This document shows, piece after piece, positions 38,188 to 58,730 of a DNA stretch of 64,000 nucleotides. The stretch covers positions 1 to 64,000 of the forward strand of contig JADFRQ010000008.1 of NCBI GenBank assembly GCA_022561215.1, written 5' to 3'. A model generated the notes under the pieces. That model worked only from the letters and a program-made list of their open reading frames with translations, searched no databases and had not been told where the DNA came from. The DNA is from Chloroflexota bacterium (GTDB lineage Bacteria > Chloroflexota > Anaerolineae > Anaerolineales > E44-bin32). Positions within the stretch are counted from its first letter, which is position 1, and every line of letters starts with the position of its first letter. A program made the position numbers and the translations under genes.

Positions 38188-40506
38188 ATGCAATTGGAAA
38201 AATTTCCCAGCATGTTTTTCAAATGTTCTGCCGACGGCGCGTGGAAAATGGAATATGTAAGCGCTGGCAGTGAAGAGTTGACGGGATACTCTCCCGCCGA
38301 ACTGATGGAAGGTCGAGCGATAAGTTACAGGGAGTTGATCCATCCCGAAGATCTTGGGGATGTGTGGGCGATCATTGAGGGCGATATAAAAAATGATCTT
38401 CCCTACCAGGTTTCGTACAGAATTAGATCGCGAACTGGTGAGGAAAAACTGGTCTGGGAGCAAGGCCGCGGCGTATCCGATGCTCAAAATTCATTGCAAA
38501 GTGTTGAAGGCTTCATCAGCCACCTCGATTCAGGTTTTGCACCACAGACGATTAAACAAGATGCGCTTAATGAAGTTATTGTCGCCTCATCACGGGCACA
38601 GGATCTAGGCAGCCTATTAGAAGGAACGCTCAAGCATTGTCTCGAAATCTTCAAATTAACGTCGGGAATGATATGGGTTGGCAACTATTTTGAGGCCCTC
38701 GGGCTCCCGCGAACGCAGGCACATGATGCTCAGCGCAGACTTCAAACACTTGTTAGAGAAGATAGAAAATTTAGAACGGTGCATGATTGGTTGGATGAAG
38801 ATTCTTTAAATACGCTTGCGCCGCTTTCCGATACATTCGATAAGCTTTCCGTTCGAGCCTCTCTCATCGTTCCTATCCGTGTCGAGGGTAAAAACATCGG
38901 TGGCATTTGTCTCAATAATGCCGACCTGCGGCAATGGACAATTGAGGAAATTTCGCTTGCGGAAGCAATAAGCAGCCAGCTTAGCGGTGCTGCCGGCAGG
39001 CTCGATCTTTTGGAAACGATTCAAGAGCAGGCGCACTTGCTGCAAAGGATTCTGGATACAGTCCAAGAGGGAATTTTCACACTTGACGTCCATAATCGCA
39101 TCCTGGTGGTTAATCGACCCGCCCGAGAATTTCTCAATCAACTTGCAGGGGTAGGCCGCGGAGAAATTCTTAAGCAGCTCGGCGAAAGCTCACTGAGGGA
39201 CATCCTCACTCCGCGGGAAGATGGTTTGCCGCATGAAGTTCGCTCTGCCGGAGACGACGGCCGAACATTCGAGGTATACCCAAGCCCTGTTATTGATGTT
39301 GGGGAAGAAAAAGGTAATACCATTCTATTGCGTGATGTGACGGAAGTTCGTCAGGCCCAACACAGGGTTCAAGAGCAAATCAGACGCGCGGCTGTTGGGC
39401 AGCTAGCTGCGGGGATCGCCCATGATTTCAATAATATTGTGGCAGCTATCATCCTGTATGGCGAAATGGTCCTTGCAATGCCAGAGCTCCCAAGCAAAGG
39501 GCGGAAGAGGATGATCATGATCATAGAACAAGCCCAGCGTGCCGCGGCACTCACCAGGCAAATACTTGACTTCAGCCGCCGTGGGATTATGGAGCCTCAC
39601 CCGATGGAGTTGATGCCCTTTTTACAGGAAATTGTGAATTTGCTTAAGCGAACATTACCGGAAAACATCCAGGTGACGCTAAATCATGGCGAAGATGATT
39701 ATGTGGTAAGCAGCGATCCGGCGCGTCTTCAGCAGGTTTTTATGAATCTCGCGGTGAATGCGCGCGATGCCATGCCCTCCGGAGGGGAGTTGCTGTTTGA
39801 TATTTCACTTGTTGAATTTGACAGCGCTATAAATTTTTCGCACGATGAGATTCCTGATGGTAAATGGGTGAGGATTGATATTACAGATACGGGACGTGGT
39901 ATTCATGCGGATGATCTCGCGCATGTTTTCGAGCCCTTTTTCACCACCAAACTACCGGGGGAAGGTTCCGGCTTGGGTCTCGCTCAGGTTTTTGGGATTG
40001 TTTCGCAACATGAAGGTTACATCGAAGTGAACAGCGAGCTTGGCGAAGGAACAACATTTTCTGTTTACTTTCGCTCCTTGCCTGTGGCAATGCTGTCCGG
40101 CATTATCCCGGAGATCTCCGAGCCAGCCAAAGGACAGATGGAAACTATCCTCGTCGTTGAAGATGATCTGGCGATGCGCGAAGCCTTGAGTGAAATGCTC
40201 GAGATGATGAATTATCAAGTTCTGAGTGCAAATAACGGCAAAGCTGCGCTCGATATTTTTGCTGAAAAACCGAGCATCGACCTTGTGTTGAGCGACCTGG
40301 TAATGCCGGAAATGGGTGGGGTGGCTCTGCACAGTGAATTGAAGAAAAAATATCCTGATACGAAGATGGTAGTCATGACCGGCTACCCGTTAGTAGAAGG
40401 AGGCAAAGACCTTTTGGAGCAGGGAATTGTGGCCTGGCTGCAAAAGCCGTTGGATGCCGATACGCTTGCGCGCACGATCCGCGAAGTACTATCGATGAGC
40501 AAATAG
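38188..40506 (+). CDS. Hybrid histidine kinase (PAS-GAF-PAS-HisKA-HATPase-REC)
   Basis: A soluble sensor kinase of 772 residues. PAS 1 covers ~1-115 (WKMEYVSAGSEELTGYSPAEL, a PAS with PAC). A GAF domain spans ~125-270. PAS 2 spans ~280-395. The HisKA box AVGQLAAGIAHDFNN has H412. The HATPase domain has QVFMNLAVNARDAMPSGGE, FEPFFTTK and GSGLGLAQVFG. The terminal receiver has D703 in LVLSDLVMPEMGG. The last ~380 residues closely parallel the kinase at 22790, including the receiver, so the two are paralogues with different input domains. It follows the GGDEF regulator and precedes the SLH gene region. No membrane segment is visible. Confidence 0.92.
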   Translation: MQLEKFPSMFFKCSADGAWKMEYVSAGSEELTGYSPAELMEGRAISYRELIHPEDLGDVWAIIEGDIKNDLPYQVSYRIRSRTGEEKLVWEQGRGVSDAQNSLQSVEGFISHLDSGFAPQTIKQDALNEVIVASSRAQDLGSLLEGTLKHCLEIFKLTSGMIWVGNYFEALGLPRTQAHDAQRRLQTLVREDRKFRTVHDWLDEDSLNTLAPLSDTFDKLSVRASLIVPIRVEGKNIGGICLNNADLRQWTIEEISLAEAISSQLSGAAGRLDLLETIQEQAHLLQRILDTVQEGIFTLDVHNRILVVNRPAREFLNQLAGVGRGEILKQLGESSLRDILTPREDGLPHEVRSAGDDGRTFEVYPSPVIDVGEEKGNTILLRDVTEVRQAQHRVQEQIRRAAVGQLAAGIAHDFNNIVAAIILYGEMVLAMPELPSKGRKRMIMIIEQAQRAAALTRQILDFSRRGIMEPHPMELMPFLQEIVNLLKRTLPENIQVTLNHGEDDYVVSSDPARLQQVFMNLAVNARDAMPSGGELLFDISLVEFDSAINFSHDEIPDGKWVRIDITDTGRGIHADDLAHVFEPFFTTKLPGEGSGLGLAQVFGIVSQHEGYIEVNSELGEGTTFSVYFRSLPVAMLSGIIPEISEPAKGQMETILVVEDDLAMREALSEMLEMMNYQVLSANNGKAALDIFAEKPSIDLVLSDLVMPEMGGVALHSELKKKYPDTKMVVMTGYPLVEGGKDLLEQGIVAWLQKPLDADTLARTIREVLSMSK

Positions 40507-40774: not shown

Positions 40775-41283
40775 GCAGCAACCCTTGGCAAGGATTGATG
40801 CAGCTGCGGTTCAAGCTAACCAAGTGTTCGTTAAACGCTCCCAATAATCTCGAGTGCCGGCATGCCGTGCCCTTTCCGGAACGGAAAACCCTTCGCCTGC
40901 AACATCGTGGTTGACGCGTGCGAATTGTTACGATTGCTTGATGTGGGCGTTCAATTGAACGCCCCTACGAAACCACTTCAATTAATCGGCAAGCCCTTGG
41001 TCTGCACCATCGTGGTTGCCGCCATTTCAAATCCGGTGTTTGGTAGGGGTGTTCAATTGAACACCCTTAAGGCATATATTCAATTAATCGGCAATCCCTT
41101 GGCCTGCCCCATCATGTTCGCTGCCATTTCAAATCCGATGTTTGGTAGGGGTGTTCAATTGAACACCCTTAAGGCGCATATTCAATTAATCGGTAATCCC
41201 TTGGCCTGCCCCATCATGTTCGCTGCCATTTCAAATCCGGTGTTTGGTAGGGGTGTTCAATTGAACACGCTTAAGGCATATAT
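40775..41283. repeat. 102-bp tandem array: SLH-gene tail plus palindrome
   Basis: Repeated units consist of a ~45-bp copy of the end of the adjacent SLH gene (on the minus strand, the part encoding MMVQAKGLPIN), a ~22-bp spacer (TTTCAAATCCGGTGTTTGGT) and a palindrome with centre TTCAATTGAA. Palindromes lie at 40945-40964, 41047-41066, 41149-41168 and 41251-41270, exactly 102 bases apart; the last is imperfect. Tail copies align at 40901, 41006, 41108 and 41210, and the true gene end at 41312. A more decayed unit is visible at about 40775-40843, and a different palindrome arm (GGCATGCC) at 40859. The copies cannot encode protein on their own. Confidence 0.9.
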
Positions 41284-43209
41284 TCAATTAATCGGCAATC
41301 CCTTGGCTTGCACCATCATATACGCCGCTGTGGCGCGATCGAGGGCATCATCGGGGCAAATGCGCAAATCCGGTGTGGTTCCGCAGGCAGGGATAATGCC
41401 CGCATTGTATGCGGCCTCAAGCCATTTGGCACCCCAGAAATTGAGGGATACATCGCTGAATATTCCTGTGGGATCGGGCGGCGTAAAGTTCGCTCCGTTG
41501 AGCATGCGTAGGAAGAATACCGTCCCCTCCGTGCGCGTATTTCCTTGCAGCGGGCAGAAAACGAGCGGATCGACCCCACAGCCAGCGGTGTAGCCATCGT
41601 TCCAAAGTCCATCAGCCCATTTGGCGTACCACTCGGAAAACGGTACATCGGCAAATACTGTTTGCAGCGGATCAGGGGGCAAATAATCTGCACCATACAG
41701 CCCACGTTCGACAAAAACTGCGCTTTCGGCGCGTGTCATGGCGTCGTCAGGACAATACATCAGCGGCGTGATACTGCAGCCGGAAACATAGCCCCCTTGA
41801 TAGAGGGCCTCGATCTCGTCGTACGCCCAATGATCAACGGGAACATCCGAGAAAGTTTGAGTTGGATCATACACTGATGGGATCAGACTATTGATGTATT
41901 CCTCAACATTGGTATAGCCATCCCCATCACGATCATCGTTACCATCCGATGGATTATTGGGATTCAAACCACGTGCCGTTTCCCATGTATCGGGCATTCC
42001 ATCGTGATCGTTATCCTCAGGGGGCGTTGTTTGCGCGAGGTCAGGCCATCCCCCTACATCGTCCTGGGAACTAATCAATGAACCGCCCCTATCTCTTACT
42101 TGTTGGACGATTCTCGCATCAACCGCGTCCCTCATCGGCGCACCGGCATGATCCAGTACAAGTTCATAGGCTTCGAAAGCCGTTTGTGTTCGAATTCCAG
42201 ATGGAGGGACTACGTATGATAGAGATTGAGCCAATCGATCTCCATCTACGGCATTCCATTCATCTCCATTATTGGTGGGCCGTTGTGGACCGATATTCCC
42301 CTCGACGTAAATTGGTCCCCCTGACCACACATCAATACCCTTCTTGGAATTCGTGTGACTGGGACCTTCGATGAAATAATTCCCGATGATGTTTACCATC
42401 GCGTCTTGAATAACCGTGGGGTAATTGCCCCAGTCATAAATCACGTTATTAATCGACTCTCCAGTTGTACCTTTCGAAAATTTCGGATTACGGGCGTTGT
42501 TGTGAACGATGAGGTTGTGGTGAATGGAGACGTTAGCCACGCTGCTTAACAACATCCCCATGGAGTGTGTATTACCTTTGGGGTGGAAGGAACTATTAAG
42601 CGCTTCACTGCTGATGCTCCATTGGATGGTGATGTCGTGAAGGGCAACACCTAGCTGGTCCTGGTTTCCCCAAACGCCGATGTTCTTATCGATGCCCCAA
42701 CTGATGGAGCTATGATCGATGATAACGTTGTAGACTGGGTTTCCAGAACCGAGGATATGGAGGCTATCGATGTTGTAGGGATCTGCGTCGCCCGTGATAT
42801 CACCTGCCCTGAAACGCAACCCGCGAATGATCACATCGTGAGTTTGCACACGAAGACCGTAGCCGTAGAGCGTTATCCCTCCACCAGGGGCAGTTTGGGC
42901 AGCAATGGTGATATAGGGATTGCGGATGCTAAGGGTTGAGAGCAGGCGTATATTCCCACTGACTTTGAACACGATGATCCTTTGCCCGCTGGCTCCGACG
43001 GCATCTCTCAAACTCCCGGGTCCACTGTCATTCAGGGAGGTTACCTCGATGACCTGACCACCTCGTCCACCTACGGCCTTTGCGCCATATCCCTCGGCGC
43101 CGGGGAAGGCGGGCAAGAATTCTTCGGCTTGGATACCATCAATAAAACTGAAACTTCCAACTGCGATCGATAGCAGTATTAATGTGGCCTGTATTCTTTT
43201 TTTAATCAT
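41284..43209 (-). CDS. Secreted PL1-like pectate lyase with C-terminal SLH repeats
   Basis: A 641-residue exported enzyme predicted to cleave pectate by beta-elimination. ATG 43209 begins a clear signal peptide (IKKRIQATLILLSIAVGS); a longer frame to 43317 is unlikely. Residues ~30-350 match the right-handed beta-helix of PL1-type lyases: FPGAEGYGAKAVGGRGG, SLRDAVGASGQRIIVF, the metal-site region DHSSISWGIDKN and RNPKFSKG...NNVIYDWGN with the likely catalytic arginine. A calcium-binding stretch follows (DNDHDGMPDTWE, DDRDGDGYTNVEE). Residues ~455-641 are three SLH repeats, each with a Cys pair (GCSITPLMYC, GCGVDPLVFC, ACGTTPDLRIC). It is the last gene of the eight-gene run and is followed by the 102-bp array. 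Confidence 0.88.
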   Translation of the reverse strand: MIKKRIQATLILLSIAVGSFSFIDGIQAEEFLPAFPGAEGYGAKAVGGRGGQVIEVTSLNDSGPGSLRDAVGASGQRIIVFKVSGNIRLLSTLSIRNPYITIAAQTAPGGGITLYGYGLRVQTHDVIIRGLRFRAGDITGDADPYNIDSLHILGSGNPVYNVIIDHSSISWGIDKNIGVWGNQDQLGVALHDITIQWSISSEALNSSFHPKGNTHSMGMLLSSVANVSIHHNLIVHNNARNPKFSKGTTGESINNVIYDWGNYPTVIQDAMVNIIGNYFIEGPSHTNSKKGIDVWSGGPIYVEGNIGPQRPTNNGDEWNAVDGDRLAQSLSYVVPPSGIRTQTAFEAYELVLDHAGAPMRDAVDARIVQQVRDRGGSLISSQDDVGGWPDLAQTTPPEDNDHDGMPDTWETARGLNPNNPSDGNDDRDGDGYTNVEEYINSLIPSVYDPTQTFSDVPVDHWAYDEIEALYQGGYVSGCSITPLMYCPDDAMTRAESAVFVERGLYGADYLPPDPLQTVFADVPFSEWYAKWADGLWNDGYTAGCGVDPLVFCPLQGNTRTEGTVFFLRMLNGANFTPPDPTGIFSDVSLNFWGAKWLEAAYNAGIIPACGTTPDLRICPDDALDRATAAYMMVQAKGLPIN

Positions 43210-43328
43210 CTCCCTCAAATCCTCCGAGTGCAGGTAACCCCTCGGTTTGGAATAGCTCTTGTCTGTGTGTGGGGGGGAAAACAGCTTCTTACCTCGCCCG
43301 GGGGTGTTGAGATTCACGGTAATTTCAA

Positions 43329-43406
43329 CCCCTTCGCTTGCAGCATCATGTCCGCCGCCATTTCAAATCCGATGTTTGGTAGGGGTGTTCAATTGAACAC
43401 CCCTAC
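43329..43406. repeat. Duplicated SLH tail plus 28-bp palindrome
   Basis: 43329-43378 copies the end of the next gene (CCCCTTCGCTTGCAGCATCAT against CCCCTTCGCCTGGACCATCAT at 43431, exactly 102 bases away). It carries the same TTTCAAATCCGATGTTTGGT spacer as the array at 40.9 kb. 43379-43406 is a perfect 28-base palindrome with arm GTAGGGGTG and centre TTCAATTGAA. Confidence 0.92.
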
Positions 43407-43415
43407 GGCGCAGCT

Positions 43416-45269
43416 TCAATTAATCGGCAACCCCTTCGCCTGGACCATCATGTGTGCAGCCATCGCGCGATCGAGTGCCTCGTCGGGGCAGAACTGGAGC
43501 TGTGCAGCAGTCTGACAAGCAGGGATGAGACCGGCGTTGTAAGCTGCTTCAATCCACTTCGCTCCCCAATAGTATTTGTCGACGTCGGCAAATATCCCGC
43601 TCGCGGCGGGAGGCACGTAATTTACCCCATTGAGCATCCGCAGGAAAAACACAGTCCCCTCTGTGCGCGTGTGTTCTTGCATCGGACAATAAACCAATGG
43701 GTCTATTCCGCATCCAGCCGAATATGCCTCGTTCCATAATGCAGTCGACCATTTGCTGAACCATTCCGCGAGCGGGACATCGCTAAAGATTGGAGAGATT
43801 GGATCGGGAGGCGTATACCCGGCGCTGTGAACGCCGCGTATCACAAAAACAGCGCTTTCCGCACGTGTCATTGCGCTATCTGGACAGTACATCAAGGGAG
43901 TGGAACTGCAGCCCGCCACGTATCCGTTCTGGTAAAGGACCTCGATCTCGTCGTGCGCCCAATGGTCAAAAGGTACGTCGCTAAACGTGGGGGATGGGCT
44001 TGGCGACCGACCTTCCACTTCGGCTGCATAATCATGCAGCCACTCCTCGAGGTTAGTGTAGCCGTCGCCATCGTCATCGCCACTGGGATTGTCGGGGATG
44101 GTCAGTGAGCGCTGGATCTCTTGTATGTTAGGCCAACCGCCTACATCATTCTGACTATCAACATAGCTACCTTGGCGATCTTTTACGGTTTGTACAACGC
44201 GGTTGTCGACTGGGTCACGATCTCCAGGTCGAGAACCGACATTGCCCAGGACGTACACTTCGACTTGACTGCTGGGGAGTGTGGTGAGTTCTTGGGGCCA
44301 AACCGGTGGGCTGCCGGCGGCCGTTACACTGCTTCCTTGGACCAGCGTCCATTGATTTGATGGAACGTTGCCATCCCACATGTTGTCATCGAGGAATATC
44401 TCTGAATCCGCTGGCACACTACTGCGGAAATTGATCGGTCTACTTGTGGTTGCAATACCGGAAATGAAGACATTTCCTACGATGCTTCCTTCAATTCTTG
44501 GAGGTCCGTGATCGATCCCCAGATTTTTCCAGTTGTAAATGACATTGTTTATATTAGCGTAGGAACCGCCGCTATATTTGGGATTACGTTGCTGGTTTTG
44601 CGAAAATAAATTACGTATCAGAGAAATCTTGGAGAAACCGGGTGTTCCAGATCCAAATAAAACTCCTGCATAGTTATTTTGTTTTAGGGGTTCACTAATA
44701 ATCGTATTGCTGATGGTAATGTCTCGAATTTCCCTTCCCCTTCCACTTGGAATCCATGCCCCAATGTTTTCATCCGTAGCCCAACTGATGGAAACATGAT
44801 CAATGACAAGGTTATAGATATCTCCATTTCCAGCACTTAGGGCAAGCGCATCTTTCCCCGACGATCGATCACCCCGGCGAATTGAAATGTGCCGAATGAG
44901 CACATCGTGTGTCAGAATAGTGAGCGTGCCGTCTTTGATTAATATAGGCCCTGGCGCAGTATGTCCGGCGAGGGTAAGGAAAGGGTTTCGTATATTTAAA
45001 TCACTTCCTCTCATATCAATCGTCCCGGAGATTTCAAAAATGCACACACGTGGGCCAGAAGCTTCCACGCAAGCTCTCAATGAACCCTGGCCGGAAGAGT
45101 TTAAATTTGAGACTTTGTACACGGCGCCGCCTCTACCGGCTGGCGTATGTGATCCGAAGCCTTCCGCCCCTGGAAAAACAGGGAGATCTGGGACAGGCGC
45201 GGCAGAAGCGGCAAACCAAGCTGAGAGGATTGTGAAGATTAGTAGAGTACCTGCGAATCGCTTAAACAC
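43416..45269 (-). CDS. Secreted PL1-like pectate lyase with C-terminal SLH repeats
   Basis: 617 residues from GTG 45269, with signal peptide (LLIFTILSAWFAASAAP). The N-terminal domain parallels the lyase at 41284: FPGAEGFGSHTPAGRGGAVY, SLRACVEASGPRVCIF, DHVSISWATDENIGAW and RNPKYSGGSYANINNVIYNW. A calcium-type loop (DDDGDGYTNLEEW) leads into three SLH repeats with Cys pairs from about residue 430. The two PL1 genes are diverged enough to suggest different pectin substrates. Ribosome-site support for GTG is weak. The gene lies 206 bases upstream of the sister lyase, with the tail-palindrome duplicate between them. Confidence 0.88.
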   Translation of the reverse strand: MFKRFAGTLLIFTILSAWFAASAAPVPDLPVFPGAEGFGSHTPAGRGGAVYKVSNLNSSGQGSLRACVEASGPRVCIFEISGTIDMRGSDLNIRNPFLTLAGHTAPGPILIKDGTLTILTHDVLIRHISIRRGDRSSGKDALALSAGNGDIYNLVIDHVSISWATDENIGAWIPSGRGREIRDITISNTIISEPLKQNNYAGVLFGSGTPGFSKISLIRNLFSQNQQRNPKYSGGSYANINNVIYNWKNLGIDHGPPRIEGSIVGNVFISGIATTSRPINFRSSVPADSEIFLDDNMWDGNVPSNQWTLVQGSSVTAAGSPPVWPQELTTLPSSQVEVYVLGNVGSRPGDRDPVDNRVVQTVKDRQGSYVDSQNDVGGWPNIQEIQRSLTIPDNPSGDDDGDGYTNLEEWLHDYAAEVEGRSPSPSPTFSDVPFDHWAHDEIEVLYQNGYVAGCSSTPLMYCPDSAMTRAESAVFVIRGVHSAGYTPPDPISPIFSDVPLAEWFSKWSTALWNEAYSAGCGIDPLVYCPMQEHTRTEGTVFFLRMLNGVNYVPPAASGIFADVDKYYWGAKWIEAAYNAGLIPACQTAAQLQFCPDEALDRAMAAHMMVQAKGLPIN

Positions 45270-45375
45270 TTCTTGTACTCGATCCTTTTTCGGCTAACAT
45301 TCATTAACGTAAAGGTGGTTGGCAAACCTCCGGTTAACTTGAACCGCCACTACATCCTGGCCATCGGATGCGGAG

Positions 45376-45437
45376 GGGCAATTGCTAGCCGAAGGCTAGT
45401 TTGAATTGCCCGCTCCTGCTATAACCTCCCGGAGGTT
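45376..45437. repeat. Two palindromes at the 3' end of the GH28-like gene
   Basis: 45376-45411 is an imperfect hairpin with outer arms GGGCAATT/AATTGCCC and inner stem CTAGCC-GAA-GGCTAG. 45423-45437 is AACCTCC-C-GGAGGTT, and its last base is part of the stop codon on the minus strand. A related ACCTCC..GGAGGT hairpin occurs at about 14276. These differ in sequence from the TTCAATTGAA type but hold the same position relative to the gene. Confidence 0.8.
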
Positions 45438-47362
45438 TATTGAATTTCTATTCCCTTTGCCTGCACCATCATAGTTGCGGCCATTGCGCGATCGAGTGCG
45501 TCGTCGGGGCAGAACTGGAGCTGTGCACCAGTCTGACAAGCGGGAATGAGACCGGCGTTGTAAGCCGCTTCAATCCATTTTGCTCCCCAATAGTTTTTGT
45601 CGACGTCGGCAAATATCCCACTTGCGGCGGGTGGTACGTAATTGACCCCATGCATCATCCGCAGATAAAAAACAGTGCCTTCGGTGCGCGTATGGCCCTG
45701 GTCCGGACAATACATAAGTGGATTGCTACTGCAGCCTGAAGTGTAACCATCATCCCATAGCGCTTCTGTCCATTTGGCAAACCACTCACTGAGCGGCACA
45801 TCACCGAAGCTAACGCTAGTCGGTTGGGGTGGCGTGTAGCCCGCGCCATGGATGCCGCGCTCGATATAGACGGCGCTTTCCGCGCGCGTCATCGTTTCCT
45901 CAGGACAATACATCAGGGGAGAGGAACTGCAGCCCGCAATATAGCCCTCTTGGTAGAGGAGCTCGATTTCTTCATACGCCCAATGGTCAAAGGGCACGTC
46001 GGCGAATGTCGGTGTTGGTCCAGGTGTAGGAATTGGTGGCCCTCCAACACCATTGCATTTTGGTGCAGCGCCATCGAAAGTGAGATTTGTGACACTCGAA
46101 TCAATCCGCAGGTCCTTTGTTGGATCTCCCGACAGGTGCGAACTGAAAGCGGAAATCGAGAGGCCGCATACATCTCGAAACCACGCCAGCGGCGCCGATC
46201 CGGAGGAGGCGTAATAGCGGATATTCCTGAAGGTCACGCGCTCCATATTGTTGATGGAAGCTTGGTGATAATTTCCGGTGTCGACACGACCGCCGCCGTA
46301 GAGATCGAAATCTTCGAAAACGATGTCATGAATGTAGCCGCCTAGAGTTTCATTAAACCCATCGCCGTCACGATCTACGGAAGCCTGGCAGTCATAAACA
46401 TTCTTACCGGCACCGGTGCCACCGCCACAAACCAGCATACGCTCTACTGAATCTTCGAAAGTGATGCCGCGAAAGGTAATGTTGCTGACTTCCGCGCCGT
46501 CATAAATTGAAAAACGAATACCGAAGGGACTGTTGTGGAGCATAATATTTTCGTAGGTAATGTTCTTGATATCGTATTCGGACCCCGTGCCGAATTTCAG
46601 AGCTGCGGAGTCACTTGAGACACGGCAATTCTCGATAAAAATATCGTCGTTGATCTCACCCGACCCTGAGGAAGAGGCGATTGCGATCCCGTCGTCATGG
46701 CTATCGATATCACAATTACGAACCACAACATGTTGTGAACTCTGCAAATCCATGCCGTCGTTCCCCCAGGACTGGCCAGAGCTTCGACCACCACGGATAG
46801 TGACATCCTCGAATGTGACGTGGTCGCTGGCCGCAGCCACGAGATGAAATCCATTTGCAGATTTAGGTGCAGAGCGTGTGTCGATGAGAATATTTGATAC
46901 AAGGATATTGGAAGAGTCCCAAAACTCGACGATTGCCGAGAATGTATTGCTCGAGGACGGACGACTGATGGTTCCTGGCCCGAGGATGGCAACGTTATTC
47001 GTGCCACTTCGGGTGCCGATAAAAACTGTATGGCATCCTGGACATTTCAGTGAGCGGAAATCACTCTCATTATCAGCAGACTGGATTGTTGCGCCATTCA
47101 GATCCAGCGTGACATTGCTTTTAATTTCAATCGTTCCTGTCGTGTATATTTTCCCGGCGGATAAGATCACCGTCCCGCCACCAAGTGCATTGCATTGGTC
47201 GATCGAGCTTTGGATCTGATTTGTATTATCGCTTCCTGAAGGAGAACCCACCTGGCAGGTATCCGCGGCATAGGCGAGATTGGGGGTTAAGGTTAAGACG
47301 GCGAAAACAATACCCACACCAAGCGAGGTAAGCAGGATTATTGTTCTCGGCCGTAAAGTCAT
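45437..47362 (-). CDS. Secreted GH28-like polygalacturonase with C-terminal SLH repeats
   Basis: 641 residues from ATG 47362; a TTG at 47377 is also possible. A signal peptide (TIILLTSLGVGIVFAVLTL...AYA) is followed by a right-handed beta-helix matching GH28: NTNQIQSSIDQCNALGGGTV, NVTLDLNGATI, GNDGMDLQSSQHVVVRNCDI and DSHDDGIAI with the paired aspartates. The usual G-H-G motif is not obvious, so the exact specificity (polygalacturonase or a related glycosidase) is open. Three SLH repeats with Cys pairs occupy about 455-641 and end in GIEIQ rather than GLPIN. It would hydrolyse the homogalacturonan that the neighbouring lyases also attack. Confidence 0.85.
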   Translation of the reverse strand: MTLRPRTIILLTSLGVGIVFAVLTLTPNLAYAADTCQVGSPSGSDNTNQIQSSIDQCNALGGGTVILSAGKIYTTGTIEIKSNVTLDLNGATIQSADNESDFRSLKCPGCHTVFIGTRSGTNNVAILGPGTISRPSSSNTFSAIVEFWDSSNILVSNILIDTRSAPKSANGFHLVAAASDHVTFEDVTIRGGRSSGQSWGNDGMDLQSSQHVVVRNCDIDSHDDGIAIASSSGSGEINDDIFIENCRVSSDSAALKFGTGSEYDIKNITYENIMLHNSPFGIRFSIYDGAEVSNITFRGITFEDSVERMLVCGGGTGAGKNVYDCQASVDRDGDGFNETLGGYIHDIVFEDFDLYGGGRVDTGNYHQASINNMERVTFRNIRYYASSGSAPLAWFRDVCGLSISAFSSHLSGDPTKDLRIDSSVTNLTFDGAAPKCNGVGGPPIPTPGPTPTFADVPFDHWAYEEIELLYQEGYIAGCSSSPLMYCPEETMTRAESAVYIERGIHGAGYTPPQPTSVSFGDVPLSEWFAKWTEALWDDGYTSGCSSNPLMYCPDQGHTRTEGTVFYLRMMHGVNYVPPAASGIFADVDKNYWGAKWIEAAYNAGLIPACQTGAQLQFCPDDALDRAMAATMMVQAKGIEIQ

Positions 47363-47417
47363 CTTTAAGTTTTTCAATAAGTTTTATGTATTCCTTTGCT
47401 TGCTATCGAACAAGGTC

Positions 47418-47437
47418 GGGCGGTTCGCGAACCGCCC
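47418..47437. repeat. Palindrome, GTAGGGGC family (TTCGCGAA core)
   Basis: GGGCGGTTCG and its complement form a perfect 20-base palindrome followed by CTAC. It starts 13 bases after the stop codon of the minus-strand gene at 47451. The same core variant occurs at 56186. Confidence 0.9.
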
Positions 47438-47450
47438 CTACGGCATTCCT

Positions 47451-49982
47451 CTAATTGATCGGCAAACCCTTGGCCTGCACCATCATCGAAGCCGCCATCG
47501 CACGAGTGAGTGGATCGTCAGGGCAGAATTTTAACTCGGGCGCGGAGGCACAAGCGGGGATCAACCCCGCTTTGTAGGCCTCCTCGATCCATTTCGCTCC
47601 CCAGAATTCAATCGAGACATCCGCAAAAATTCCGCGGGGATCGGGCGGCGTATAGCTCGCCCCATGGAGCATGCGCAGGAAGAACACCGTCCCTTCGGTG
47701 CGCGTGTGTTCCTGGAGCGGGCAATAGACGAGCGGATTGGTCCCACAACCTGCCGTATAGCCGGCGTTCCAGAGCGCAGCTGACCATTTGCTGAACCACT
47801 CCGAGAGAGGCACATCCGCAAAGATTAACTGACCTGGATCAGGAGGCGTATAGGCAGCGCCGTTTATGCCGCGCACGACGAATACGGCACTCTCTGCGCG
47901 CGTCATCGCATTTTCGGGGCAATACATCAGCGGCGCGCTACTGCACCCGGAAACATAGCCCCCTTGATAGAGGGTCTCGATCTCATCATGCGCCCAATGA
48001 TCGAAGGGCACATCGACAAAAGTCGGAGGATCCGGGGGTTTGCTGCCATCCTGGTAGACGAACTTGAACGCATCGGCGATGACGGGACCATTTGCTCCCT
48101 GGGCGGAGAGGATCACTTTTCCAGAGGTTCCCTTATTGAAAGTGAAAGTGCCGAGACTGTTCCATTGACCAAAATTGCTCGATTGATCGACTGTGCGCTT
48201 CGTTGAACCACCGCTATGCTGGATCGTGATCCCAACATTGGTAGCTTCCGCTACTGAGGAAGCGCTATCACCTAGATAGCCATGCCATTCGAAGACCTCA
48301 TAGCTGCCGCCGACGCCAATCGAAGGGGTGAATATGGCGGTTCCATCACTGTCGCTGCGTGCGTGCGTGTGCCAATAATCTACGCCCCCATAGGCGCGTC
48401 CCTGCTTGTGGCTGTAAACACTCCAATGATTACGGCCACCTTTCATCTGCAGAGAAAAACCACCGCTAAGTGCGGCCTCAAAACTGCCAGGTGAGGTGCT
48501 GAAATCGTTGTTATCGACAATGATGTCGGAGATGATGGTTTGAGGGCTGCGCAATAAAATGATGGCATCCCCCAAAGGCTTGATCTGGTTACCCTTTTGC
48601 CATGTGTAACCGTTCAAAGAGACGGAGGTGAACGCTGCCCCAGTGTTCAAGGCATTTCCGCCGTTGAGTGAGATATCCTGCCCTCCTTCAAATCTCCAGT
48701 ATGGGCCGGCATAGCCAGGTAGAGACTTAAGTTCTTGATTGGATACATTAACCGAATTGCCAGTTACATTGACGATGGAAACACCCTTATCGAAAAAGCG
48801 TACCCAAACTCCAGCTTTAAGTTTCAAAGCATCGTCCAACGGTCCGAAGCGACCCAAGTCTATGGGTTGTCCCAAATCGAGATCAAACTCGTCATACCAT
48901 TGGTGAATGTGGTGATTCTGTGTGCTTTGCGCTTCTTCAAAGGTCATATAGTTAAAGTAGGCGTCTCCAAGAAGTGTGACCCCAAGGAGATAACGCATAG
49001 ATTGCAGGTGGTTTCTTGAATCGGTCTTGTCACTCAAAGCGGTGATAAATGGATCGCTGCGATCCGGTCGCGCATCGATGATGGCCACATGAGGAAAGGG
49101 AGCAACCTCCATAAAGTATTTGTACTCATCGTTCCAAAAATAGCCGGTCTCAAAATTGTTGCCAAATCCGGTGGTCCATTCGCGGACCATGCCGTTGATA
49201 TATTCAACGCCAAGTTTCTGCCACTGGAAACCGAAATTGATGAGCGAGGTCTTGCTGGATCCGGCCTTGTCCAGCTCAGCGCGTAGATTGGCCAATAATT
49301 CGACGGTGCCTTCCTGCCACTTGGCATCGACCCAAGCCTTGCCGTGTTCATCAAAATCGTTGACCCCGTTGCGATCCATATCGATATCGGAAATGCCGTA
49401 GGGCTTTCTCCAGAGCCAATCAGTAGCCACACCGTCGTTTATATTCAGCAGACTCTGCTCAACAACTTGAACCGGCAAGGCTTCGAGGATCGACAATCCG
49501 GAAAATCGTCCACTCTTGGCATCCCGTGAGAAAATCGATTGATCGATCATGCGATTGCAGCAATTGAGATAAACGTCATCTCCATTTGAATCGTCAACAA
49601 GGAACGCGCTCGCGTCAAAATCACTCACTGGGATTGGATATCTCGAGGGACTGACGTAAGCAGTCCATCCGCGCGTTGGGATGTTTAGCGTGCTTGGGCT
49701 GATGGCTTTGATCTGTTCGCCAAGATATTCTCCGCTTCCTACCATCACCAGGTCATGTTTTGCATACCAATCCGCAGGGGCACTGCCGAAGTGGAATATG
49801 CCAATGCGTGGATAAGATGGGCTGTAATTGTCTGCTGCCGCTGATGGCTGGGTCTGTGGGATCGTTTGATGGCTGGCATTTGTATTTGCTGAAGATGATT
49901 GAACGGGCGATAGCAGAGCGAAAGTCGTCAGCACAGCGATAATACGAACCGTGAGATTGCGACGCGTTGAGTTACTAAGCAC
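47451..49982 (-). CDS. Secreted GHL15-like glycosidase with golvesin-like domain and SLH repeats
   Basis: 843 residues from GTG 49982 (GGAG nine bases before; a TTG at 50000 adds six residues). A signal peptide is followed by a predicted TIM-barrel domain (about 55-390) resembling the putative glycosidase family GHL15: YPRIGIFHFGSAPADWYAKHDLV, LNINDGVATDWLWRKP. It contains a 12-residue EF-hand-like loop (DMDRNGVNDFDE). A second domain (about 495-650) matches the golvesin C-terminal type (GGSYEVFEWHGYL, TVDQSSNFGQWNSLGTFTF, VIADAFKFVYQDG), often carbohydrate-binding. Three SLH repeats with Cys pairs end the protein. Its last 655 bp are identical to those of the gene at 53288. The polysaccharide substrate is unknown. 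Confidence 0.82.
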   Translation of the reverse strand: MLSNSTRRNLTVRIIAVLTTFALLSPVQSSSANTNASHQTIPQTQPSAAADNYSPSYPRIGIFHFGSAPADWYAKHDLVMVGSGEYLGEQIKAISPSTLNIPTRGWTAYVSPSRYPIPVSDFDASAFLVDDSNGDDVYLNCCNRMIDQSIFSRDAKSGRFSGLSILEALPVQVVEQSLLNINDGVATDWLWRKPYGISDIDMDRNGVNDFDEHGKAWVDAKWQEGTVELLANLRAELDKAGSSKTSLINFGFQWQKLGVEYINGMVREWTTGFGNNFETGYFWNDEYKYFMEVAPFPHVAIIDARPDRSDPFITALSDKTDSRNHLQSMRYLLGVTLLGDAYFNYMTFEEAQSTQNHHIHQWYDEFDLDLGQPIDLGRFGPLDDALKLKAGVWVRFFDKGVSIVNVTGNSVNVSNQELKSLPGYAGPYWRFEGGQDISLNGGNALNTGAAFTSVSLNGYTWQKGNQIKPLGDAIILLRSPQTIISDIIVDNNDFSTSPGSFEAALSGGFSLQMKGGRNHWSVYSHKQGRAYGGVDYWHTHARSDSDGTAIFTPSIGVGGSYEVFEWHGYLGDSASSVAEATNVGITIQHSGGSTKRTVDQSSNFGQWNSLGTFTFNKGTSGKVILSAQGANGPVIADAFKFVYQDGSKPPDPPTFVDVPFDHWAHDEIETLYQGGYVSGCSSAPLMYCPENAMTRAESAVFVVRGINGAAYTPPDPGQLIFADVPLSEWFSKWSAALWNAGYTAGCGTNPLVYCPLQEHTRTEGTVFFLRMLHGASYTPPDPRGIFADVSIEFWGAKWIEEAYKAGLIPACASAPELKFCPDDPLTRAMAASMMVQAKGLPIN

Positions 49983-50221
49983 TAGGTGTTTCTCCTTCAA
50001 GCATTTGAGCTGTATGGCAGCTTGAATAGTAAAAAATCATATTAACCGTCAATCGAGTCATTCGTAATATGTAAGATGGAAATTTAACGATGTTGATCTA
50101 ATCGGCGAGCAGATTGCAGTTGCTGCGTTTCACAAATTGGGTCCTAATTCGAATTTAAAATTGCCTTTATCCTGTAGCCAACCCCATAAAAAGTGTAAGG
50201 ATGAGGTAGCGAAAGAGGCAG

Positions 50222-50257
50222 GGTACTCGAGTACCTAGGGTGTAAGTACGTTGGTCC
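50222..50257 (-). promoter_or_regulatory. Candidate operator, paired direct repeat
   Basis: AGTACGTTGGTCC lies at 50245-50257, with an imperfect copy 23 bases before it (GGTACTCGAGTACC from 50222). On the gene's sense strand the unit is GGACC-N3-GTACT. It lies about 240 bases before the start of the gene at 47451. The same pair, with the same 23-base period, occurs at 55909 and 61042. Confidence 0.55.
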
Positions 50258-50290
50258 TATGGTGGAGGGGATATAATAATGATCTCGCGT

Positions 50291-50412
50291 GGGCACGGCA
50301 TTCCGTGCCCCACCGGAACGGCAGCCCATTCGCCGCACCATCATGGCTGCTGCCATTGGTCTGACCGTCCTATTTCGATTGCTTGTCGTGGGGGCGTTCA
50401 CTTAAACGCCCC
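50291..50412. repeat. Palindromes and tail copy after the beta-helix SLH gene
   Basis: 50291-50310 is a palindrome with arm GGGCACGGCA. 50311-50358 copies the end of the neighbouring gene (GCACCATCATGGCTGCTGCCAT), 103 bases from the true end. 50391-50412 is an imperfect palindrome (GGGGCGTT...AACGCCCC). The stop codon TAG of the gene at 50412 lies in the GTAGGGGC arm. Confidence 0.85.
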
Positions 50413-53183
50413 TACGGAATGCTTAACCCCTTCGCTTGTACCATCATGTAGGCCGCCATGGCGCGCGTGAGAGGATCATTAGGGCAGAACTTCAGCTCGG
50501 GCGCGGATGAACAAGCTGGGATCAGCCCGGCGTTGTAGGCTGCCTCAACCCAATCGGCGTACCACATCTCGATTGGCACATCTGAGAAAACCCCATTGGC
50601 TTCAGGCGGAACGTAATCTGCGCCGTGCAGCGTGCGCAGGAAGAAGACGCTTCCCTCCGCGCGGGTGTGGCCTTGTAGAGGACAATAAATCAGCGGATTG
50701 GTACCACAACCGGCAGTGAAGCCATCGTCCCACAACGATGTAGTCCACTTGGCGAACCACTCCCACAAAGGCACGTCGTCAAAGGGGTGGCTCGATGACT
50801 GGGCGGGAAGGTATCCAGCCCCGTGAATTCCGCGCACGACGAATACGGCACTCTCTGCGCGAGTCATGGTTGCATCGGGACAGTACATGAGCGGATCGTT
50901 GTTGCACCCTGCAACGTAGCCAGCCTGATAGAGCGTTTCGATGTATTCCAGGGCCCAGTGGCTGGAGGGTACATCAATAAAAGTAGGACTTGGACCGTTG
51001 AGTTCAACTGCGCCGATATCTGGAGCAATACCGGAGTACGTGTCATTGACACCCGCTATATGCACTCCTGCATCCACGAGGGGAGAAGATTGTGGCAGGG
51101 TGAAGTCTCCATTGGAGGGATTGGCGAATTCTGGGTGGACGCTAATTCCATGCTGCTCGAGCCCATAGGTCAATCGCATTTCCTCAACGGTGTACATTCG
51201 GTCTCCAGAAAGTATTCTGACGAGATAAGAGCCGTCGACGGAACTGTCAACCCACAGGTTGTCGTAATCCATATTCATCTCAACGGGGTGACCGTTGTTT
51301 TCAATTTGATCCTTATAAACCGTGAGCACCGCATGACCTGGATTGACGGACCAGGAGTTGTTCCGGGTATTTGCGATGAAACCGGGCGTATTTTTCCAAA
51401 CCGTTGAAAATGCTGAGATCGAGTTGACCGGCGAGGCGGGGTCGAGCTCAATAACTGAACTGTTGTGATAGAGCAATGTAGGCCCCGTCCCGCCGCTGGC
51501 GTTGACGTTGTACTTCCATGCCCCATAAGGCATTATGTATTTTCCAGTAAGATCTAAACTGCCATCAGGGAAATATCTGTTCGTCATGTAAATCGTGTTG
51601 CGGATCATCCACAACGGTCCAACCGTAGCAGGCGCTGAGGAGATCCCGACGAAGACATGGTGGAGGTAATTCCCCCAGATGACCTGGTTGTACACAGGTC
51701 CATCAAGTTCAAGCGCATCGTCCCCGATGCGATAGAGTTCGTTCCCCATAATGATGGTGCCAGCGTTGTATCTGGGATTGCCCATGGTGGCGGGCCCACC
51801 GTTGCCCCAGGGCGAGCCGGCGTTAATCCCGTTCTCCACATCATGGATTTTGTTATTACGGATCACGTGGTTTCCGCCAGAGACCAATCCGATTCCGCCG
51901 GTTGAGATCACATCATGCCCCAACCACCATTCTCGATACCAAAAACTGGGTGAGCAATAAATATCGTTCCCCTCGATCAAAGAGAAGGAGGAGAGATCGT
52001 CATCGGATTTGCTCAGGGAGGTATGGGCCTTAATTCCATCCCAGTTCCAACGGAGCGTATTGTTTCTCACAACAACGTAATCGGCGCTATCCAGCTGGAT
52101 AGCGGTGCGCGTGTGTTGAATTGTCAGACCATCAACCACGACATGATCTCCAGCGATGATCAAGCCGTAGCGAGCCAATCCGGCGTAGATGCTTCTCCCC
52201 GTCGGGTTGATGGCTGGGCCAGACCACTGGTCGAATACATTCGGAAATTTCACGTAGAGACGATTGGAATTGCCGTCGTACCACCAGCCGCCATGCAGAC
52301 CGGTACGCGTATCGCCCTGATAGAGTCCAATGGCCAAATTATTGAGAGAATCGAAGGGCATGAGGAAGTGTTCTTCGAAAAAGACTATCCTTGGAGAAGT
52401 AGAAAGAGGCGCCCAGTAGACCCCAGGATATGTCGAGCGGTCTGCATCTTGCCAGGTCACGTTCCCGGGAGAGGCAAGCTCGGCGTCTGCGCCATCTAAA
52501 ATTGGGTTTTCGCCTGGGGCAGATTTAATGATGATGGGATATTCAGCTGAACCGGATTTATCAATGCGAATGGATCTTGAGGAAGAAATGTCGTAATTGC
52601 CGCTATGAAGCAGGATGGTCTCGCCAGGACTGACCAATTCGATCGCCTTTTGGATGGTTTGAAGAGGCGCATTCGAAGATCCATCGTTGCTGTCCCGACC
52701 AAGCGGTGAGACATGGAGCACCCGACCTGAATTCTCTGTTCTGGGTTCTGCTCGAGTCGAAGCGGTGAAAGTGAAAGGGTTTTCCCCAAGAATGCCATCT
52801 GGGTCGGTGAATCTCACTTGAATTTCATAGGATGTTCCCGGCCTGAGATTGAAGAGTCGGCCAGCCCATTCAAATTGGGACCCGGAGACGTTGGGATTAA
52901 AAGTAGTCGCATGCCAGATGCGTTGGAGAGGGTGGCCTTCTTTCCATGGAACGGATCCGATCTGACGATATTGAATCTGTGCTTCGCTGTCCTCGTTGCT
53001 ATCGCCAGTGAAAGGGATGCTGAAGCCGAGCGTTGAGAACGCAGGAAGAAGGATAGGGTCCCCTTGCGGGATCGTCAATGATGATGAGGTTTGGGCCTGG
53101 GCAAGCGTGCCTTGGAAGATAAAAGCAGTCCCAAGGATGAGAATAAGGATGTGTGTCTTTATCTGTTTAGAGTTTCGAACCAT
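50412..53183 (-). CDS. Secreted right-handed beta-helix protein with SLH repeats
   Basis: 923 residues from ATG 53183, with a strong GGAGG ribosome site; a longer frame to 53291 is unlikely. A signal peptide (THILILILGTAFIFQGTLAQA) is followed by a fibronectin-III-like domain (about 35-160, ending TYEIQVRFTDPDG). A large beta-helix domain (about 165-690) starts DGSSNAPLQTIQKAIELVSPGETI and contains PIIIKSAPGENPILDG, VVVDGLTIQHTR and NNTLRWNWDGIKAH. This pattern occurs in DUF1565 and PL6/PL9-like proteins. A polysaccharide lyase or hydrolase function is probable, but I cannot name the family. Three SLH repeats with Cys pairs end the protein. It is 104 bases downstream of the gene at 53288. Confidence 0.82.
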   Translation of the reverse strand: MVRNSKQIKTHILILILGTAFIFQGTLAQAQTSSSLTIPQGDPILLPAFSTLGFSIPFTGDSNEDSEAQIQYRQIGSVPWKEGHPLQRIWHATTFNPNVSGSQFEWAGRLFNLRPGTSYEIQVRFTDPDGILGENPFTFTASTRAEPRTENSGRVLHVSPLGRDSNDGSSNAPLQTIQKAIELVSPGETILLHSGNYDISSSRSIRIDKSGSAEYPIIIKSAPGENPILDGADAELASPGNVTWQDADRSTYPGVYWAPLSTSPRIVFFEEHFLMPFDSLNNLAIGLYQGDTRTGLHGGWWYDGNSNRLYVKFPNVFDQWSGPAINPTGRSIYAGLARYGLIIAGDHVVVDGLTIQHTRTAIQLDSADYVVVRNNTLRWNWDGIKAHTSLSKSDDDLSSFSLIEGNDIYCSPSFWYREWWLGHDVISTGGIGLVSGGNHVIRNNKIHDVENGINAGSPWGNGGPATMGNPRYNAGTIIMGNELYRIGDDALELDGPVYNQVIWGNYLHHVFVGISSAPATVGPLWMIRNTIYMTNRYFPDGSLDLTGKYIMPYGAWKYNVNASGGTGPTLLYHNSSVIELDPASPVNSISAFSTVWKNTPGFIANTRNNSWSVNPGHAVLTVYKDQIENNGHPVEMNMDYDNLWVDSSVDGSYLVRILSGDRMYTVEEMRLTYGLEQHGISVHPEFANPSNGDFTLPQSSPLVDAGVHIAGVNDTYSGIAPDIGAVELNGPSPTFIDVPSSHWALEYIETLYQAGYVAGCNNDPLMYCPDATMTRAESAVFVVRGIHGAGYLPAQSSSHPFDDVPLWEWFAKWTTSLWDDGFTAGCGTNPLIYCPLQGHTRAEGSVFFLRTLHGADYVPPEANGVFSDVPIEMWYADWVEAAYNAGLIPACSSAPELKFCPNDPLTRAMAAYMMVQAKGLSIP

Positions 53184-53254
53184 TTCAACCTCCGGCGATT
53201 GGCGTTGGTTCGTTTGGGTGGCACTCAACCGTATTTCTACAAAGCACAGTTTTG

Positions 53255-53280
53255 GTAGGGCGTTCAATTGAACCGAACGG
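53255..53280. repeat. Degenerate palindrome, TTCAATTGAA core
   Basis: GTAGGGCGTTCAATTGAACCG retains the left arm and centre of the family, but the right arm is altered. It lies seven bases after the stop of the minus-strand gene at 53288. Confidence 0.75.
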
Positions 53281-53287
53281 AATAAAT

Positions 53288-55840
53288 TCAATTGATCGGC
53301 AAACCCTTGGCCTGCACCATCATCGAAGCCGCCATCGCACGAGTGAGTGGATCGTCAGGGCAGAATTTTAACTCGGGCGCGGAGGCACAAGCGGGGATCA
53401 ACCCCGCTTTGTAGGCCTCCTCGATCCATTTCGCTCCCCAGAATTCAATCGAGACATCCGCAAAAATTCCGCGGGGATCGGGCGGCGTATAGCTCGCCCC
53501 ATGGAGCATGCGCAGGAAGAACACCGTCCCTTCGGTGCGCGTGTGTTCCTGGAGCGGGCAATAGACGAGCGGATTGGTCCCACAACCTGCCGTATAGCCG
53601 GCGTTCCAGAGCGCAGCTGACCATTTGCTGAACCACTCCGAGAGAGGCACATCCGCAAAGATTAACTGACCTGGATCAGGAGGCGTATAGGCAGCGCCGT
53701 TTATGCCGCGCACGACGAATACGGCACTCTCTGCGCGCGTCATCGCATTTTCGGGGCAATACATCAGCGGCGCGCTACTGCACCCGGAAACATAGCCCCC
53801 TTGATAGAGGGTCTCGATCTCATCATGCGCCCAATGATCGAAGGGCACATCGACAAAAGTCGGAGGATCCGGGGGTTTGCTGCCATCCTGGTAGACGAAC
53901 TTGAACGCATCGGCGATGACGGGACCATTTGCTCCCTGGGCGGAAAGGATCACTTTTCCAGAGGTTCCCTTGTTGAAAGTGAAGGTGCCGAGACTGTTCC
54001 ATTGGCCATCATTTCGGGATTGATCGACCGATCGATTCGCAGTTCCACCTGCATGGGAGATGGTTATGCTGACGTTGCTGGCTTCATTCACATCACCGGT
54101 GTCACTGCCAAGATAGCCATGCCATTCGAAGACCTCATAGCTGCCGCCGACGCCAATCGAAGGGGTGAATATGGCGGTTCCATCACTGTCGCTGCGTGCA
54201 TGCGTCTGCCAATAATCCACGCCACCGTAGGCACGGCCGTTCTTCTGGCTGAATACGCTCCAGTGGTTGCGGCCGCCATTCATCTGCAAGGAGAATCCAC
54301 CGCTCAATTTCGCTTGGTAGCTGCCAGGCGAGGTGCTGAAATCGTTATTATCGACAATGATGTCGGAGATGATGGATTGAGGGCTGCGCAACAAGATGAT
54401 GGCATCGCCCATCACTCTGGTGAGGCCATTTTTTTGCCATGAATAACCGTCCAGAGTAACAGCCTTAAATGCCTCTCCGTTATTCTGCGCCCTGGATCCA
54501 TTGAGGGATAAGTCCTGGCCTCCAGCAAAACGCCAATAGGGCCCTGCGTACCCGGGAAGAGATTTCAACTCCTGATCGGTGATCGATATCGGACTGCTGG
54601 TGACATTGACAATCGAGACACCTTTATCGAAGAAGCGCACCCAGATCCCAGACTTGAGCTCCTGGGCATCATCCAATGGGCCGGATCGACCAAAATCGGT
54701 GGGTCGGCCCAGATCCAAGTCGAACTCGTCGTACCATTGGTGAATGTGGTGATTCTGCGTGCTTGTCGCTTCCTCAAAAGTCATAAAATCGAAATAAGCA
54801 TCACCAAGCAACGTGACGCCGAGCAGGTAGCGCATGGCTTGCAGGTGATTTCGTGAATCGGTCTTGTTTACGCTGCCGCTGAAGAATGGGTCGCTGCCAT
54901 CGGCACGACCATCGATGATGGCGACGTGAGGATAAGGAGCGTTCTCCATGAAGTATTTGTATTCATTGTTCCAGAAGGACCCATTCTTGAAGTTACCACC
55001 GAAACCAGTTGTCCATTCGCGGAACATGCCATTAATGTATTCGTTCGCAATTTGTTGAAATTGAAAGCCATAGTTGACGAAGGCTACGTTTCCGGGTCCG
55101 GCCTTATCGAGCTCTTTGCGCAGGTTGGAGAGAAGCTCAGTTACCCCTTCTTGCCATTTTGCGTTAACCCATTTTTTGCCATGTTCGTCGTAGTCGTTGA
55201 CCCCGTTCCTATCGAGATCAATATTGGAAACGCCATAGGGCTTCACCCAAAGCCAATCTGTAGCAACACCGTCGTTAATGGACAAGCGGTTTTCTTTTGC
55301 TGCTGCAATGGGTAGGGCCTGGCGGATTGTAAGACCACTGTACTGCCCGAAGCCGCTTGGCCTGGAGAAGCTAGACATATCAATCAGGCGATTACAACAA
55401 TTGATGTAGACGTCTGCGCCGGAGGCATCCACTGCCAGGAAAGCTTCTAAATCAAAATCAGGCTTTGCGATGGGATAGCGGGTCGGAGAGATATAAGCCG
55501 CCCACTCCCTCGTCGGCAGGACAATCGTGTTGGGATTAAGCGCTTTAACTGTCTCGCCCATGTCAAAGCCGCTGCTGACGACGATCAAATCGTATTTTGC
55601 GTACCAATCATCCGGGGCTCTGCCAAAATGTAGCATTCCAATCCTCGGGTAAGAAGGGCTGTAGAGATTTTGGGGGTTGGAAACCCCAGCAAGGGCCGCC
55701 GCGCCCTGCGATGAAAAAACGACCGGGGTGAAGGAAAGAGCAGATACGACCAGAATAAAGAGAACAGTTTTGCCGAGTTTCTTTAATTGTGTGAACGATG
55801 GTCTTCTCCACCAGCGGGTGGCTTCGTGGGGATGATGCAT
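53288..55840 (-). CDS. Secreted GHL15-like glycosidase with golvesin-like domain and SLH repeats
   Basis: 850 residues, ATG 55840 with GGAG before it. It is a full-length paralogue of the gene at 47451 with the same order: signal peptide, TIM-barrel-like domain (YPRIGMLHFGRAPDDWYAKYDLI, SINDGVATDWLWVKP, EF-hand-like loop DLDRNGVNDYDE), golvesin-like domain (GGSYEVFEWHGYL, DQSRNDGQWNSLGTFTF) and three Cys-bearing SLH repeats. The SLH region and adjoining linker are identical in DNA to the paralogue over 655 bases (53290-53944). The N-terminal two thirds have diverged. A candidate operator lies 65-105 bases upstream. The substrate is unknown; the locus points to pectin-type polymers. Confidence 0.82.
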   Translation of the reverse strand: MHHPHEATRWWRRPSFTQLKKLGKTVLFILVVSALSFTPVVFSSQGAAALAGVSNPQNLYSPSYPRIGMLHFGRAPDDWYAKYDLIVVSSGFDMGETVKALNPNTIVLPTREWAAYISPTRYPIAKPDFDLEAFLAVDASGADVYINCCNRLIDMSSFSRPSGFGQYSGLTIRQALPIAAAKENRLSINDGVATDWLWVKPYGVSNIDLDRNGVNDYDEHGKKWVNAKWQEGVTELLSNLRKELDKAGPGNVAFVNYGFQFQQIANEYINGMFREWTTGFGGNFKNGSFWNNEYKYFMENAPYPHVAIIDGRADGSDPFFSGSVNKTDSRNHLQAMRYLLGVTLLGDAYFDFMTFEEATSTQNHHIHQWYDEFDLDLGRPTDFGRSGPLDDAQELKSGIWVRFFDKGVSIVNVTSSPISITDQELKSLPGYAGPYWRFAGGQDLSLNGSRAQNNGEAFKAVTLDGYSWQKNGLTRVMGDAIILLRSPQSIISDIIVDNNDFSTSPGSYQAKLSGGFSLQMNGGRNHWSVFSQKNGRAYGGVDYWQTHARSDSDGTAIFTPSIGVGGSYEVFEWHGYLGSDTGDVNEASNVSITISHAGGTANRSVDQSRNDGQWNSLGTFTFNKGTSGKVILSAQGANGPVIADAFKFVYQDGSKPPDPPTFVDVPFDHWAHDEIETLYQGGYVSGCSSAPLMYCPENAMTRAESAVFVVRGINGAAYTPPDPGQLIFADVPLSEWFSKWSAALWNAGYTAGCGTNPLVYCPLQEHTRTEGTVFFLRMLHGASYTPPDPRGIFADVSIEFWGAKWIEEAYKAGLIPACASAPELKFCPDDPLTRAMAASMMVQAKGLPIN

Positions 55841-55908
55841 GCTTAACTTTCTCCTGCTGTCGGGGTGATTTTGTTTTAATTTTAGAGGGTTGGCAGGATG
55901 TCCTCCAG

Positions 55909-55944
55909 AGTACTGAGGTCACTTAGAGGGAAGTACCCTAGTCC
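55909..55944 (-). promoter_or_regulatory. Candidate operator, paired direct repeat
   Basis: AGTACTGAGGTCA (55909-55921) and AGTACCCTAGTCC (55932-55944) are two copies with a 23-base period, 69-104 bases before the start of the gene at 53288. They match the pairs at 50222 and 61042. Confidence 0.6.
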
Positions 55945-56094
55945 TGAACATCAATGGGACCTAATCAGAGCATGGGGCAATCAGTGAACATATTCGGCCG
56001 AATGAATTCGCCGGGTTGAGCAGCAATGATCGTTTGTGGGATGGGGAATGCGTACCGTAGCTCACGCCTGATCGTCCTATCACGAATCCTTTTT

Positions 56095-56213
56095 GCCGGC
56101 ATGCCGTGCCCCTACACCAGTAGATTTCGTTTCGTGTGCACCATCAAATTAATCATTGATAGATTTTCCATTTCGATTTCTCGTCGTAAGGGCGGTTTGC
56201 GAACCGCCCTTAC
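56095..56213. repeat. Palindromes and tail relic overlapping a stop codon
   Basis: A GCCGGCATGCCGTGCCCCTAC arm pair lies near 56095-56114. A relic of the SLH gene end (GTGCACCATCAAATTAATC) is near 56135-56155, 98 bases from the true end. A perfect 28-base palindrome with arm GTAAGGGCGG occupies 56186-56213. Its right edge contains the TAA stop of the gene at 56210. Confidence 0.85.
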
Positions 56214-58657: not shown

Positions 58658-58730
58658 AATGTAGTGATTCCAACTTGCAAGGTGTTATTGGAGGGAAAGA
58701 TTCCTCTTCACCTGTCTATTCTCCGGGTAA

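Follow-up and report, generated by a model that had tools for sequence, protein, structure and literature searches.

The window analysed here, i.e. bases 1-64000 of contig C18 in a draft genome of 3.39 Mb and 126 contigs, carries on its minus strand a cluster of eight tandem paralogous genes with related 3' ends. The N-terminal parts of the eight gene products differ (pectate-lyase-like, polygalacturonase-like, GHL15/Golvesin, and rhamnogalacturonan-lyase-like), while an SLH-type C-terminal end is common to all of them. Genome-wide, about two dozen related SLH gene ends were found on contigs C18, C68, C100, C101, C31, C49, C54 and C3. Gene 1, the last of the eight, matched the NCBIfam PelZ model at E 1e-64, a match under the curated cut-off of that model, and its PDB matches were pectate lyase and the SLH part of the S-layer protein Sap; its true start is probably the internal ATG of MIKKRIQ..., near 43206. 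Behind the stop codon of gene 1 lies an array of gene-tail copies and palindromes, flanked by two convergent genes, a sensor kinase gene (38188-40506, plus strand) and gene 1 itself (41284-43317, minus strand).

41284-60880, minus strand: SLH-tailed paralogue cluster, eight tandem genes
41284-43317, minus strand: gene 1, open reading frame with pectate-lyase-like N-terminal part and C-terminal SLH region
41284-41331, minus strand: unit 1 tail, the real coding end of gene 1, ending in AAYMMVQAKGLPIN and stop
41247-41274, minus strand: unit 1 palindrome, TTAAGCGTGTTCAATTGAACACCCCTAC
41182-41229, minus strand: unit 2 tail copy, MAANMMGQAKGLPIN and stop, noncoding
41145-41172, minus strand: unit 2 palindrome
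41080-41127, minus strand: unit 3 tail copy, identical to unit 2 at 47 of 48 positions
41043-41070, minus strand: unit 3 palindrome
40978-41025, minus strand: unit 4 tail copy, MAATTMVQTKGLPIN and stop
40941-40968, minus strand: unit 4 palindrome, C-variant, GTAGGGGCGTTCAATTGAACGCCCACAT
40883-40917, minus strand: decayed fifth tail copy, from the repeat search (tail profile E 2e-4)
40855-40872, minus strand: outer palindrome of a different core type, GGGCACGGCATGCCGGC, read from the sequence

Structure of the array and its tail copies

TRF reported a period of 102 bp, with 3.4 copies and a 92% match at 40977-41319, and a repeat search placed the tail copies at 40882, 40987, 41089, 41191 and 41293, i.e. 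at spacings of 105, 102, 102 and 102. In gene orientation (minus strand), the unit consists of a tail of 48, 9 nt, a palindrome of 28 and a spacer of 17, adding up to 102 bp. TRF, the repeat search and the unit alignment thus agree with the preliminary description, made from the sequence alone, that a coding tail and a palindrome had been amplified outside the gene at about 102 bp. That description had placed four tails and a decayed one at this period; all the tails are present, but only units 1-3 are true 102-bp repeats, followed by a fourth tail, the decayed fifth tail and the outer palindrome. Unit 4 departs from unit 3 in the 9-mer (33% identity), the palindrome variant (75%) and the spacer (41%). 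The bounds first given, 40775-41350, contract to an extent of about 40855-41331. A CRISPR array was excluded, since the sequence between the palindromes itself repeats and there are no unique spacers.

Over 45 positions, the gene 1 tail shares 38, 37 and 35 with the three copies outside the gene. The best place after these gave 26, and 2000 shuffles of the flank never exceeded 27 matches; the suspicion that the tail similarity might be at chance level is thereby dispelled. A profile built from real family tails recovered the copies independently, at E 9e-8 to 2e-7, and tail copies were also found behind two other genes of the cluster:

43314-43361, minus strand: noncoding tail copy behind gene 2, ending in GLKLP and stop, vs GLPIN and stop for gene 2 itself (tail profile)
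43379-43406, minus strand: perfect palindrome behind gene 2, GTAGGGGTGTTCAATTGAACACCCCTAC
50318-50359, minus strand: decayed tail copy behind gene 5 (tail profile E 1e-4)
50388-50415, minus strand: palindrome behind gene 5, its GTAG overlapping the TAG stop codon

Behind gene 5, a decayed tail copy is followed by an outer palindrome of the same type as behind gene 1, and the order of the two matches. The extra tails look dead by their sequence: 18 of 23 genes, by a count made by eye, keep the motif MMVQAKG intact, vs none of the six copies (p 0.001), so that the copies appear unmaintained as coding sequence, and their ATG start and stop codon are therefore read as signs of descent and not of a small gene. 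About 23 SLH gene ends were scanned by profile, and dead tails were confined to genes of this cluster; no tail-like sequence was found outside SLH ends within the stretches scanned. Among 190 open frames of at least 150 aa in the stretches of this genome examined, tail duplication stood clear of the shuffles in genes 1 and 2 only. A dead tail behind gene 7 had been suspected by eye, and the profile search found none.

The tail of unit 4 is 85% identical to that of gene 6, 83% to gene 2, 81% to gene 4 and 79% to gene 1, and the GLKLP copy behind gene 2 resembles the tails of genes 5, 7 and 8, which likewise end in P and stop. Judged from these comparisons, the dead tails belong to the paralogue family, and gene 1 is not the only gene of which they are copies. 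The array had been thought to consist of the gene's own 3' end, which holds for unit 1; with eight paralogues, however, other sources are possible for the remaining tails. The further proposal that each event had left behind an old tail of this gene finds no support in the comparison, unit 4 being as near to genes 2, 4 and 6 as to gene 1 and the copy behind gene 2 carrying the ending of another subtype.

Merging of paralogous 3'-end reads during assembly might have created the array or its copy number, as the draft is in 126 contigs and the paralogue ends are near-identical. We regard such an artefact as very improbable: each unit has its own differences, which argues against an assembler simply duplicating one stretch, and gene 2 is followed by a related structure.

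The palindrome family and its possible function

The palindrome GTTCAATTGAAC was located 15 times in the genome, seven of these within the window, and nowhere in the control. A wider set, defined by the arms GTAGGGGC and GCCC (GTAGGGGCR...YGCCC), gave 46 strand matches at 39 places on many contigs, a count that holds for the exact-arm pattern and leaves out degenerate copies; the reversed control gave none. Cores in this set include GGTTCGCGAACC, ACGGCATGCCGT and GTCTGGCCAGAC. Of 395 other genomes in the class, 8 contain the GGGGCGTTCAATTGAACGCCC form, which is thus not confined to this species. Several copies show full symmetry (GTAGGGG...CCCCTAC) and fold into hairpins of 12 bp, others are asymmetric at the ends, and in the three inner units one palindrome end has decayed to TTAAGGG. 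At genes 5 (50412-50415) and 7 (56210-56214), the GTAG or GTAA of the palindrome supplies the stop codon TAG or TAA, and in the palindrome of gene 7 the opposite arm bears a matching change. Palindromes lie clearly behind the coding regions at SLH genes; at 16 other places, where short stretches and short ORFs were read, their position is mixed.

On C34 (L188:578-773, G000), a different GTAG palindrome, with the core GTCTGGCCAGAC, is duplicated together with its flank, 69 nt being repeated at 127 bp with 96% identity. As the flank there is unrelated, no feature peculiar to SLH genes is needed for the amplification step. By its sequence features the palindrome is a member of a dispersed, GTAG-tagged, REP-like family. 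The preliminary description had held the array to be no ordinary repeat type; this view is not supported, because the palindrome belongs to such a dispersed family and tandem reiteration together with flanking DNA is known for GTAG palindromes (PMC3733652) and recurs on C34.

A gene on C74 resembles REP-associated tyrosine transposases (NF047646, 53.7 bits vs a cut-off of 80). The putative transposase frame (L165:7680-7765, G000) contains a GTAG-tagged inverted pair, GTAGGGGCGAAGCATTCGAGGG ... CCCTCGAATGCTTCGCCCGTAC. Dispersed and GTAG-tagged palindromes in a genome with such a transposase-like gene could be taken to mean that the palindrome-tail unit is itself mobile and inserts behind SLH genes with the help of that enzyme. 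We consider this very improbable: in the sequence scanned, the tail occurs only at the ends of SLH genes and in the copies following genes 1, 2 and 5, and at no non-SLH site of this genome, palindromes elsewhere have other flanks, and no target-site signature of an insertion came to light.

Folding of the array RNA is more favourable than that of its shuffled versions (z -3.8), as would be expected of any palindrome array. No intrinsic terminator and no T tract were found in the array, the number of terminators in the region is at chance level, and a search of the cluster against Rfam gave no RNA family match even at E 1. The palindromes are able to fold into hairpins, whether in RNA or in single-stranded DNA, and, by analogy with what is thought for REPs, may act as 3' RNA hairpins or as a barrier between convergent transcripts. 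No function is required for the array.

Probable recombination among the paralogues and proposed origin of the array

Of the eight sites at which units 1 and 3 differ, seven fall within the tail's first 24 nt and one in the next 78 nt (p 1e-4, from eight differences only and with the 24-nt cut picked after seeing the data). Such clustering points to a breakpoint inside the tail, where the coding part of gene 1 was probably fused to the array or converted against it; gene conversion would mimic the same breakpoint pattern. Between units 2 and 3, 4 of 102 sites are different, a near-identity that fits a recent amplification. Elsewhere in the cluster, genes 4 and 6 are near-identical over at least their last 600 nt (47451-48051 and 53288-53888) and diverge abruptly at the stop codon; the shared end may go back to a recent conversion or duplication, or may stem from the assembly. 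In two C100 genes, identity runs through the stop codon and ends inside the palindrome. Where the identity of paralogues ends at a tail or palindrome, exchange would be the natural reading. In the relative G022, a tandem SLH cluster on C216 (L152:9299-11103) has an SLH end in a short, broken frame behind several short frames, which suggests a decaying paralogue; as proof this case was set aside, its boundaries being insufficiently clear.

We propose that the array is probably a neutral product of recombination among these tandem genes for SLH-anchored surface enzymes. At or just 3' of the stop codons of the paralogues lie REP-like palindromes. In the first step, an illegitimate exchange or deletion between paralogues, taking place at a shared ATGG, would have joined the spacer behind the palindrome of one gene to the 48-base end of another, so that the order became tail-palindrome-spacer-tail; this junction is common to genes 1 and 2. 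In the second step, suggested by the repeat pattern, tails 102 bp apart would have served as substrates for unequal crossing over or replication slippage, and these, perhaps with help from the hairpins, would have multiplied the unit to three behind gene 1. We infer this order, i.e. an extra tail first and the 102-bp amplification later. Of the two routes named in the preliminary description, repeated insertion or unequal exchange, the latter is plausible, but there is no sign of repeated insertion.

Since no gene-body remnant is present between palindrome and dead tail, a deleted paralogue is indistinguishable from a direct local duplication and a later conversion of the tail. Most tail copies begin at the same ATGG, which could equally reflect a single primary duplication. 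A simpler course would be a purely local one, in which the 3' end of gene 1 and its palindrome were repeated by slippage at the hairpin, with no other paralogue taking part. The near-identity of units 2 and 3 accords with this, as does the C34 duplication of a GTAG palindrome and its flank in unrelated sequence; but the tail copy behind gene 2 bears the ending of another subtype, unit 4, whose spacer and palindrome variant differ, is at least as close to genes 2, 4 and 6 as to gene 1, and the gene 1 tail departs from units 2 and 3 almost solely in its first half. Local duplication by itself seems to us an unlikely account, with perhaps a modest chance of being right.

If exchange between paralogues is the correct reading, the array would be a readable record of recombination in tandem surface-enzyme families, with the dead tails marking earlier exchanges and the palindromes marking the limits of paralogue identity. 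A bolder version, in which the conserved tail and the palindromes form a recombination platform where different surface-enzyme genes are swapped ahead of an unchanging 3' end and the array keeps a record of past exchanges among SLH enzyme genes, strikes us as improbable. Rather than a new genetic system, the array looks like an ordinary outcome of local duplication and of recombination between genes that are nearly identical. It is useful as an example and might serve as a marker for strains, and no new mechanism is required.

Comparison with known repeat systems

The MIRUs of mycobacteria are repeats of roughly this size and are often found in tandem. They resemble the present array as intergenic repeats that contain a short ORF beside a gene end; MIRUs, however, insert at start codons with their ORF coupled to the next gene, whereas the mini-ORF here is a dead copy of a gene tail (PMC12548453). 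No co-directional gene follows the array, the neighbour at 38188-40506 being convergent, so no start codon comes after it. The preliminary description had looked to related genomes for the 102-bp unit; as a whole it had no match in 26 family genomes, apart from one weak match to the palindrome only, and the family search (27 genomes) revealed no second member of the source genus. In BIMEs (bacterial interspersed mosaic elements; PMC2817692), palindromes are regularly spaced between genes, as in this array, but REP orientation alternates, whereas here symmetric palindromes are linked by a gene tail.

Close parallels concern GTAG REPs, short palindromes with a GTAG end that occur as several families per genome in phyla including the Chloroflexi, lie mostly 3' of ORFs or between convergent ORFs, usually exceed 100 copies per genome, and have already been described as reiterated in tandem with flanking DNA (Di Nocera et al. 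2013, PMC3733652). Here, too, the GTAG tetranucleotide stands at the end of a short palindrome, and palindrome and flank are arranged head to tail at 40977-41319 and on C34. In GTAG REPs, however, the GTAG is unpaired at one end, whereas here a CTAC at the opposite end often pairs with it; their copies number in the hundreds, against tens counted here with the exact-arm pattern and a widely variable core; and the flank carried along in the present array comes from the coding ends of a family of paralogous genes.
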